DNA of 41,599 bases from Deltaproteobacteria bacterium (GTDB lineage: Bacteria; Desulfobacterota; Syntrophia; Syntrophales; UBA5619), in NCBI GenBank assembly GCA_021372415.1, contig JAJFUM010000179.1, positions 1 through 41,599 on the forward strand. The letters run 5' to 3'. Below the pieces are notes generated by a model. The model made no database searches. It worked only from the letters and a program-made list of their open reading frames with translations, and was not told the origin of the DNA. Positions 36,045 through 39,103 of this stretch are shown here, in pieces; the first letter of the stretch is position 1, and every line of letters begins with the position of its first letter. Made by a program: the position numbers and the translations under genes.

Positions 36045-36377
36045 ATGGCAAAGGCAAAGAAGGGTGATTCACTGAATTGTGAGGTGTGCGGTCTGGTGAC
36101 GGTCGTCGACAAGGCGTGCGGCTGCGCCGATACGGCGGAAGTCATCTGCTGCGGAAAGCCCATGGTCGTCAAGAAGAAGGTGGCCAAGAAGGCGGCTAAG
36201 AAACCGGCCAAGAAGGCTGTGAAGAAGGCCAAACCAGCCGCCAAGAAACCGGCCAAGAAGGCCAAGCCGGCCGCCAAGAAGCCGGCCAAGAAGGCCAAAC
36301 CGGCTGCCAAGAAGCCGGCCAAGAAGGCCGTGAAGAAGGCCAAACCGGCCGCCAAGAAGCCGGCGCCGAAGAAGTAA
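36045..36377 (+). CDS. Desulforedoxin-like domain fused to a histone-H1-like Lys/Ala/Pro tail
   Basis: A 110-residue two-part protein. Residues 1-43 hold a compact Cys motif: CEVCG (Cys12, Cys15), ACGCAD (Cys25, Cys27) and ICCGKPM (Cys35, Cys36). The CxxCG...CCGxPM pattern is that of desulforedoxin and the N-terminal iron domain of desulfoferrodoxin. From residue 44 on, the chain is almost only Lys, Ala, Pro and Val in KPAAKKPAKKA repeats, like eukaryotic H1 tails, AlgP or chlamydial Hc2. The ATG at 36045 has GGGAGG upstream. The tail should be disordered and bind DNA or RNA; the head should bind Fe or Zn. Function is not known to me; nucleoid binding that responds to metal or redox state is inference. 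Confidence 0.8.
   Translation: MAKAKKGDSLNCEVCGLVTVVDKACGCADTAEVICCGKPMVVKKKVAKKAAKKPAKKAVKKAKPAAKKPAKKAKPAAKKPAKKAKPAAKKPAKKAVKKAKPAAKKPAPKK
36231..36374 (+). repeat. Tandem 33-bp coding repeats (11-residue KPAAKKPAKKA unit)
   Basis: Three adjacent 33-bp units (36231-36263, 36264-36296, 36297-36329), a 12-bp spacer encoding VKKA, and a fourth unit (36342-36374) whose end is altered to APKK. The units differ mainly at third codon positions. The number of repeats is likely to vary between strains. Confidence 0.85.
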
Positions 36378-36854: not shown

Positions 36855-37439
36855 TCAAGGATTTGCCGGCTTGCAGATCACTTCCTGGACCTTGAGGTCG
36901 AAGAGGTGGGCGCTGGTGGCCGGCTTCAGGACAAGGGCCGTATCCGCCCCTTTCCCAGTGCCACCGATGGAGATGATGGCCTCGTCGGTCCGGACGAGGC
37001 CGGCATCGGCGGCCATCAGAGCGATCTCGACGGCCACCTTCGTCCCCTGCCCGAAGAGCCGCAGGGTGTAAGCCATCACCTCGTCAACCTGATAGGTGCC
37101 GAGCTTGTTTCTCACGGCCCGTCCGACACCTCCGAAGGCGTGGGCACAGGTCAGCACCTCCACCCCGTCGGCCAGGAGCCTGCGGCGGTCCTCTTCTTTC
37201 AGCTCCAGTTCGTCCGGCCCCGCGTACCCCATCGCATGGGTTACGGCAACGATCTTCATTCCTGGAAGACGTTTGAGCGTCTCAAAGGCCGTCCGGCCGC
37301 TGCACGTGGCCAGGACCAAGCGGCCGATGGCCAGTTCCTTCGCCCGTCGGCCTACGGCTTCGAGAACGGCACCCGTATTGGCGGGACCCGGCTTGGGGAA
37401 ATAACGACAGGGGACCTCGAATAGAGGGCTTGCTCGCAT
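36855..37439 (-). CDS. Stand-alone pyruvate kinase C-terminal (alpha/beta) domain protein
   Basis: A 194-residue protein consisting only of the fold found at the C-terminus of pyruvate kinase, where effectors bind. Visible features are NTGAVLEAVGRRAKEL (where PK has TxxAVxxA), LVLATCSGRTAFETLKRLPG, VVAVTHAMGY, GTYQVDEVMAYTLRLFGQG, ALMAADAGL and the closing IISIGGTGKGADTALVLKP. Nothing of the PK barrel is present. Such single-domain homologues occur in archaea and anaerobic bacteria and their role is not established. The ATG at 37439 has AGGAGGT nine bases upstream. It faces away from the HesB gene across a 340-base gap. Confidence 0.85.
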   Translation of the reverse strand: MRASPLFEVPCRYFPKPGPANTGAVLEAVGRRAKELAIGRLVLATCSGRTAFETLKRLPGMKIVAVTHAMGYAGPDELELKEEDRRRLLADGVEVLTCAHAFGGVGRAVRNKLGTYQVDEVMAYTLRLFGQGTKVAVEIALMAADAGLVRTDEAIISIGGTGKGADTALVLKPATSAHLFDLKVQEVICKPANP

Positions 37440-37705
37440 CCTGTCTGACCTCCTTTCTGAATGGAAGACTTTCCGATGAGAAGATGTCCCGTCTCCGTGA
37501 GGATCGCCCCGCGGGCCCCAGCTTCAGCTCAGGCAAACCGGCGCGACATCCTCTGTATCATAAGAAGCGGGAGGATCCCTGTCAACCTCAATCGCAGGGG
37601 GGTGGTGTCCCCGCCTGGGCCGGAGGACCGGCTTCAGGCCCAAGGTGACAAACTGAGGCACTGCCGGCAGGGGATCGGCCTTCGTCGGCAGGCAAAAAAT
37701 ATTAT

Positions 37706-37733: not shown

Positions 37734-37780
37734 AGTCGAAATTCAACGGGGCGTCACGGGAGTCCCAAAAGGAGACCAAC

Positions 37781-38095
37781 ATGTTTTCCGTATCTGAAAA
37801 GGCTAGTGAGATGATTAAGGAATTCCTTAAGAATCGCACGGAATCCCCCTCCATCAGGGTACTGATGCAGGAGGGTGGCTGATCGGGGCCCTCACTGGGC
37901 ATGGCTCTGGATGAGTCAAAACAGAACGACGAGATTTTCGAGGACCGGGGGATCACCTACCTGGTCGAAAAGGACCTCTTTGAAAAGGTCAAACCCATCG
38001 AAATCGATTTTATCACCACGCCACGGGGGTCGGGGTTCAAGCTGACCTCAAGTCTGAAGCAGGAAAGCGCCTGCGGCTCCTCCTGCAGTTGCTGA
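37781..38095 (+). CDS. HesB/IscA-family selenoprotein (in-frame TGA = selenocysteine)
   Basis: A HesB/IscA-like Fe-S carrier, 104 residues if the TGA at 37880-37882 is read as selenocysteine. The N-terminal part (SVSEKASEMIKEFLKN, then IRVLMQEGG) runs in one frame straight into SGPSLGMALDESKQND. The break falls exactly at the first conserved Cys of the family (GGCSG becomes GGUSG, Sec34). The C-terminus has GSGFKLTSS and Cys-rich ACGSSCSC, corresponding to the usual CxC ligands. AAGGAG precedes the ATG. A SECIS-like stem-loop follows the TGA, and a terminator follows the stop. Without recoding, the gene would wrongly be called from an ATG at 37901. Alternatives (pseudogene, sequencing error) are much less likely. 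Confidence 0.9.
37891..37915 (+). promoter_or_regulatory. Bacterial SECIS-like stem-loop
   Basis: CTCA (37891-37894) pairs with TGAG (37912-37915), and GGGC (37897-37900) with GCTC (37904-37907, one wobble). The apical loop ATG starts 19 bases after the TGA, inside the 16-37 base window usual for bSECIS elements that recruit SelB. It lies within the coding sequence. Confidence 0.6.
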
Positions 38096-38101
38096 ACTTA
38101 C

Positions 38102-38135
38102 GCCCCGGAAACCCCATCGGTTTCCGGGGCTTTTT
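38102..38135 (+). terminator. Rho-independent terminator of the HesB gene
   Basis: GCCCCGGAAACC (38102-38113) and GGTTTCCGGGGC (38119-38130) form a perfect 12-bp stem with a 5-base loop, followed by TTTTTC. It begins six bases past the stop. Confidence 0.93.
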
Positions 38136-38149
38136 CTTCGCCGTGTCTC

Positions 38150-39103
38150 ATGAGGGAAGATCCCGCCCAAAGAGAGCGCAATCGCGCAGACGCCCTGATC
38201 CTCTCGGGGTGTTACGCCGAGGCCATCCCAATTTACCGCTGGCTTGCCGAGACCTTTCCCGAAGAGGAGTCGCACCTGCTGGCCCTCGCCTGGGCCCTCC
38301 ACGACGGCGGCTGTCATGAGGAGGCCGTCGCCTGCTTCGAGCGCCTCTTCGAGGGGGAAGTCGCCAGGAAAGTCTTCACGGGGTTCGCTTATGACGAGCT
38401 CGTCCGCATTTATCGGGCAAGACAGGATTGGAAAGCCCTGATCCTTCTCTGCGAGCGGGCCGCCGCGGCCCAGTCCGATGATGTCGGTCTCCAGCAGACC
38501 CTCGGCGAGGCCTATCTGGCGGCCGGAAAGACCGGAGAAGCCCTGCAGGTGTTTGAATCCCTGGCCCGTCTGGAACCGGAGAGCCCGGAAAGCTGGTGCG
38601 CGCTGGGCATCGCCCGGCTGGCCACCGGGGACCCCGGAGGGGCCGAATCGGCCTGTCTGAGGGCTGCCGAGATCGAACCGGCGGACGCCCCCGCCTTCTT
38701 CGACCGTCTGGCCGAGGGATGCCTCCGTTACGACCATCCTGAGCGGGCCAAGGCGGCCCTCGATCATGGCCTGGCCCTCGACCCCGGCCAGCCGGCTCGG
38801 TGGATGGCCCTCGCCGAAGCCCTGGTCCGCCTGGAAAGGACCGCTGAAGCGGCGGAGGCCTGCGAGAAGGCAGGCTCCCTTAACCCCGCAACAGCGGGAA
38901 GCTGCTGGCACCACCTGGGCAACCTCCTGACGAAGGAGGGGTTCCATCCCCAAGCCGCGGAAGCCTTCACCAGGGCCGCCCTGGCCGAACCGGACAATCC
39001 CCGCTACCTCCTGCGCCTAGCCGCATCCTACACGGCACAGGGCCGGATCGAATCCGCCGCGGACGTCCTCCGCCGGGCAGAGGCGCTGATCGGCCATTCA
39101 TAA
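38150..39103 (+). CDS. Tetratricopeptide-repeat protein
   Basis: A 317-residue all-helical protein made of about eight TPR units, which usually mediate protein-protein contacts. Units are visible as NRADALILSGCYAEAIPIYR, LGEAYLAAGKTGEALQVFE, LGIARLATGDPGGAESAC and LGNLLTKEGFHPQAAEAF, each with the G/A/P spacing of TPRs. It has no signal peptide or membrane segment and should be cytoplasmic. The ATG at 38150 lies only 15 bases past the HesB terminator T-run and lacks a good ribosome-binding site. It may therefore depend on readthrough or on a promoter overlapping the terminator. The partner is unknown. Confidence 0.88.
   Translation: MREDPAQRERNRADALILSGCYAEAIPIYRWLAETFPEEESHLLALAWALHDGGCHEEAVACFERLFEGEVARKVFTGFAYDELVRIYRARQDWKALILLCERAAAAQSDDVGLQQTLGEAYLAAGKTGEALQVFESLARLEPESPESWCALGIARLATGDPGGAESACLRAAEIEPADAPAFFDRLAEGCLRYDHPERAKAALDHGLALDPGQPARWMALAEALVRLERTAEAAEACEKAGSLNPATAGSCWHHLGNLLTKEGFHPQAAEAFTRAALAEPDNPRYLLRLAASYTAQGRIESAADVLRRAEALIGHS

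Follow-up and report, generated by a model that had tools for sequence, protein, structure and literature searches.

HesB-like selenoproteins are an established family. A survey from 2006 reported 11 of them, listed HesB-like selenocysteine (Sec) in Syntrophus aciditrophicus, Syntrophobacter fumaroxidans, Geobacter and Desulfovibrio, and found two Sec-to-Cys and no Cys-to-Sec conversions (PMC1794560). The family is also included in a review from 2022 (PMC9312934) and in another from 2026, the latter giving the motif UxGP (PMC13188914). The model used by surveys for HesB-like selenoproteins is TIGR01911. In M. maripaludis, a HesB-like selenoprotein has been identified via mutagenesis and 75Se labelling; its function is termed unclear in a paper of 2024, and the mutant was viable and retained nitrogen fixation (PMC11097638). 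The first-pass annotation of the locus described here had stated that selenoproteins of this kind were already known, as the 2006 survey and the model NF038090 (IscA_HesB_Se) confirm, and that their cluster chemistry was undescribed; the literature searched yielded no description of it.

The window, by which we mean the whole 41,599-nucleotide stretch of DNA analysed, contains a gene of this kind with the following features and neighbours.

36855 to 37439, − strand: divergent gene for a stand-alone pyruvate kinase alpha/beta-domain protein (PF02887, 44.7 bits), a recurrent neighbour
37770 to 37774, + strand: ribosome-binding site AGGAG, 6 nt 5′ of the ATG at 37781
37781 to 38095, + strand: IscA/HesB-like selenoprotein gene, 104 aa plus the stop TGA at 38093-38095, assigned by the NF038090 match and by AF2/Foldseek
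37880 to 37882, + strand: in-frame TGA read as selenocysteine 34 (codon 34, GGUSGPS), aligned with Cys35 of E. coli IscA
37902 to 37918, + strand: bacterial SECIS hairpin, stem UGGCUC/GAGUCA (37902-37907/37913-37918), loop UGGAU (37908-37912)
38072 to 38092, + strand: C-terminal three-cysteine tail (C98, C102, C104; ACGSSCSC), from the translation and the Cys counts over Sec copies
38102 to 38135, + strand: intrinsic terminator, a 12-bp stem (38102-38130) followed by TTTTT
38150 to 39103, + strand: gene for a TPR-repeat protein, a conserved neighbour lying directly 3′ in 33 of the 43 genomes with both genes

The gene product reads as follows.

MFSVSEKASEMIKEFLKNRTESPSIRVLMQEGGUSGPSLGMALDESKQNDEIFEDRGITYLVEKDLFEKVKPIEIDFITTPRGSGFKLTSSLKQESACGSSCSC

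A single frame through the TGA at 37880-37882, a ribosome-binding site and a terminator had been described by the first-pass annotation, and all three were borne out by the sequence, the terminator with 12 pairs and its run of T. Sites resembling AGGAG or AAGGAG were located 5′ of the ATG in most relatives, too. A search of the + strand gave no sigma-70-type promoter for the hesB-like gene. A near-consensus promoter of this type (TTGACA-17-TATGAT, 37557-37585, − strand) was observed 5′ of the divergent pyruvate-kinase-domain gene. The possibility that the terminal TGA encodes a second Sec was rejected, the Sec copies ending there in TGA (n = 52), TAA (n = 37) or TAG (n = 15) and the terminator following. 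An Rfam search of the window gave no match reaching any gathering score, and around the gene there were only weak sub-threshold matches, mostly at the terminator.

A set of 118 distinct homologues was assembled from 61 related genomes together with 80 named contigs, the record titles being Syntrophales, Syntrophaceae, Desulfobacteraceae, Syntrophorhabdaceae and other Deltaproteobacteria. In 105 of the 118 a TGA stood at the matching site; these Sec copies are kin, hence counts over them do not represent independent events. The hairpin was in register in 103 of the 105, with the loop UGGAU or UGGAC in every one of the 103. Six of six pairs were formed in 77 of these and five in 26, whereas six pairs arose in 1.9% and five in 19.5% when the codons of these proteins were resampled synonymously. 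When the partner strand was slid out of place, the mean number of pairs fell from 5.75 to 1.1-3.0. The codons within the hairpin were constrained as well: a four-fold degenerate Ala codon in the stem was GCT in 94 of 95 copies against 12% elsewhere in these genes, and a Leu codon was CTG in 103 of 103 against 37%. The mean codon-resampled folding z was −1.32 in 48 Sec copies and 0.00 in 10 others. Folding of the window sequence by itself was weak (z of −1.86 for 42 nt, a longer stretch taking another fold), and the SECIS assignment is therefore based on comparison of the copies and on the codon tests. A stem-loop with its loop 19 bases after the TGA had been noted before; the stem-loop is there, but it is the stem that starts 19 nt downstream, and the loop starts at 25 nt.

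Among the copies with Cys at the site, the hairpin had decayed in several (1/6 pairs in L162, 3/6 in L032 and L169, 4/6 in L160). Three others, L003 with 6/6 pairs and L019 and L058 with 5/6, look like recent Sec-to-Cys changes, judging from the hairpin they retain.

The genome to which the window belongs encodes SelA (605 bits), SelB (356 bits) and SelD (390 bits; L066, G000:C417:2402-3325). An in-frame TGA lies within the selD gene, so that SelD is probably itself a selenoprotein. The tRNA-Sec model RF01852 gave no match above threshold in this genome. With the surroundings of selC in a sister genome as the query, the first 60 of the 98 bases of selC, identical at 60 of 60 positions, were located right where contig C31 (4381 bp) ends; absence of selC was rejected, the gene being cut by the contig end. 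A search for selA, selB, selC and selD had been proposed in the first-pass annotation, with absence of the machinery as the outcome that would count against Sec; as all four genes were found, selC in part, the reading came through this test. In another genome (G001) an integrase-like ORF, recognised by eye, adjoins the selC tRNA gene (L071:6079-7398), which suggests selC as an integration site.

Under an opposing view, TGA-34 would be a genuine stop or an error of sequencing, and the gene a pseudogene or one encoding Cys. The incomplete selC copy in the assembly could be cited for this view, but the TGA in 105 relatives, the synonymous constraint on the SECIS and the presence of selA, selB, selD and most of selC make it extremely improbable. 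We regard Sec decoding of codon 34 as practically certain on these genomic grounds. For a predicted Sec at the site of the first IscA cysteine there is support from conservation, from the constrained SECIS and from the four Sec genes.

The protein matched NF038090 over its full length (positions 1-100 of 101) with 118.8 bits, the cut-off being 85. The trait described for this model, Sec (or Cys) at a GG[UC]xG site together with a downstream SECIS, is present in the window gene, and in an alignment of the named relatives 40 of 40 matched the model at E<=0.001. TIGR01911 (HesB_rel_seleno) gave 44.6 bits, below its cut-off of 66.35, which places the window gene in a sister subfamily. The scores were 60.1-60.2 bits for TIGR00049 (cut-off 58.8), 24.3 for PF01521 (cut-off 26.3) and 48.5 for the IscA equivalog TIGR02011, the last below the cut-off of 150.6 and with the C-terminal CxC not in register. 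The AF2 model had a pLDDT of 84.8, with the tail 96-104 below 50, and its best Foldseek match was E. coli IscA 1r94 (E=1.3e-7, TMq 0.75). The top ranks were IscA, SufA and related structures, with DsrR (2k4z) at rank 9. An IscA fold and membership of the IscA_HesB_Se subfamily of A-type proteins are thus supported. Since DsrR is a structural match too, the fold is not proof of cluster binding.

In the profile alignment with E. coli IscA, Sec34 falls on Cys35 and C98 on Cys101, and S96 stands opposite Cys99. The earlier placement of the TGA at the first conserved Cys ligand agrees with this alignment. The two other Cys ligands had been described as kept, and here the picture is mixed: C98 on Cys101 and Ser on Cys99 mean that the second Cys of the canonical CxC is in place and the first is lost, a re-spaced three-Cys tail replacing the CxC. 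C102 and C104 are additional to the IscA set. The last 14 residues contained exactly three Cys in 88 of the 105 Sec copies and four in 7, so that one Sec plus three thiols is the usual make-up; outside the tail, Cys was rare in these copies, with 2 after and 6 before the Sec.

Multiple homologues of IscA_HesB_Se were observed in two genomes, seven in G038 and five in G054 (L008, L074-L083). Several of these carry a vicinal Cys-Sec (SCUGP, GCUGA, FCUGP) in place of GGU and few or no tail Cys, and others have no chalcogen at the site (W in L008, R in L082). Tandem pairs were seen in L084 and L085 (genomes G058 and G026), with a Sec copy (ETUGG, EAUGG) followed by a Cys (ENCGG) or Ala (ESAGN) copy and the TPR gene next downstream.

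From gene to function, we picture the following route. SelB, directed by the hairpin that starts 19 nt after the codon, brings tRNA-Sec to UGA-34 and translation goes on to 104 residues, a step supported by comparative genomics. In the predicted fold the core places Sec34 at the position of the first cluster-ligating Cys of A-type carriers and the flexible tail adds three thiols; Sec34 and the tail cysteines together would hold an Fe-S cluster or iron. The protein might then pass cluster or iron from a NifU/IscU- or SufB-type scaffold, both of which are present, to apo-proteins. A selenolate would be a ligand that is always deprotonated and exchanged faster, affordable for a strict anaerobe. 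We infer cluster binding, selenium as a ligand and transfer, and consider a cluster or iron held by Sec34 and the tail Cys and handed on by an A-type carrier the most likely reading, with a chance of about even or slightly better. Though drawn from homology, it is also the most economical one, given the fold, the site and the finding of no second carrier homologue.

The search behind that last point used TIGR00049, which scored above cut-off in 8 of 14 control genomes, E. coli among them. With this model no A-type-carrier homologue besides the hesB-like gene was found in the genome of the window, and most of the 61 related genomes had one gene. No match at all was obtained in 13 of the 61, seven of which have a completeness of 90% or more and a contamination of 5% or less, and this is a point against a role as carrier. 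Further points against it are that the IscA CxC is not kept in register and that the M. maripaludis mutant is viable and fixes nitrogen, although the protein of that species may lie outside this subfamily.

The surroundings of the gene recurred in two arrangements, in which profile searches named only the TPR and pyruvate-kinase domains, the other genes being named by inspection of their sequences. The first consists of a divergent pyruvate-kinase-domain or transglutaminase-like gene, hesB, TPR and a PilT-like ATPase, and the second of phosphoglucose isomerase, RdgB, hesB, a YggS-like and a TtcA-like gene. In the window, the terminator stands between the hesB-like and TPR genes. A small protein encoded at 36048-36374 (+ strand) had a weak desulfoferrodoxin N-terminal match (13.2 bits, cut-off 23) and a long Lys/Ala/Pro repeat tail resembling a histone H1 tail. 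Proteins matching NifU_N and SUFBD were found in the genome, and Fe-S assembly thus exists elsewhere in it.

The clustered conserved neighbours included no recognisable isc, suf or nif gene, which counts against an A-type carrier and in favour of its main rival, a selenol/thiol redox protein built on the IscA scaffold. Here Sec34 would attack an oxidant or persulfide and a tail Cys would resolve the product as a selenenylsulfide, with no cluster involved. The layout of the copies scanned, with one Sec and nearly all Cys in the tail, fits Se-S exchange; some f19 paralogues (L080, L083; genomes G038, G054) combine a vicinal Cys-Sec with little or no tail Cys, and most uncharacterised selenoproteins are expected to be redox proteins by the 2026 review (PMC13188914). 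The site, however, has the UxGP of the A-type-like HesB family and no CxxU, UxxC or TxxU motif is present, the table of the 2006 survey does not give HesB-like its mark for homologues of thiol-oxidoreductases (PMC1794560), and the sole carrier homologue found would have left its ancestral role. We rate this redox role as somewhat unlikely.

A TtcA-like tRNA-thiolation gene near hesB in another lineage, assigned by reading its sequence, points to a third reading, handling of metal, metalloid or selenium, in which the Sec/Cys set would bind soft metals or carry selenide or persulfide rather than an Fe-S cluster. Soft metals would suit one Sec and three tail thiols, and Sec has been suggested as a metal ligand in other selenoprotein families (PMC13188914). 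The conserved neighbours included no recognisable resistance or transport genes, and the fold and site match those of Fe-S carriers; such a role appears quite improbable.

Returning to the A-type carrier, a stronger form of it would be that in many Syntrophales the sole A-type Fe-S carrier homologue is a selenoprotein holding its cluster by one selenolate and the thiols of the three-Cys tail; this we put forward as an unlikely, tentative proposal. If true, Fe-S protein maturation in these syntrophs would depend on selenium supply. No mixed Se/S ligand set for Fe-S trafficking was described in the literature searched.

The in-frame TGA of the window gene holds up as a Sec codon and was correctly read by the first-pass annotation, and genes of this kind were already known. 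It adds one more member to a catalogued selenoprotein family and confirms that UGA in such frames is not to be annotated as a stop. The sole carrier homologue, the make-up of one Sec and three tail Cys, the TPR neighbour and the Cys-Sec paralogues were not found in the literature searched and are modest additions to the known family. The main interest lies in the role of the family, a question standing since at least 2005-2006, and the lineage is informative for it because the Sec protein is the sole A-type homologue found and one Sec with three tail Cys is usual across many families.

Compared with known systems, the window copy is closest to NF038090 IscA_HesB_Se, with a full-length match and nothing found that distinguishes it. 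With the HesB-like selenoprotein of the surveys (TIGR01911) it shares the Sec in UxGP, here USGPS, although the cut-off of that model is not reached. E. coli IscA (1r94, 1s98), SufA and ErpA share the fold, with Sec34 aligned to Cys35, but have Cys where the window protein has Sec and a CxCG tail where it has one of the CGxxCxC type. Allochromatium DsrR (2k4z) also shares the IscA fold and is without the cluster cysteines, whereas Sec and Cys are conserved in the window family.
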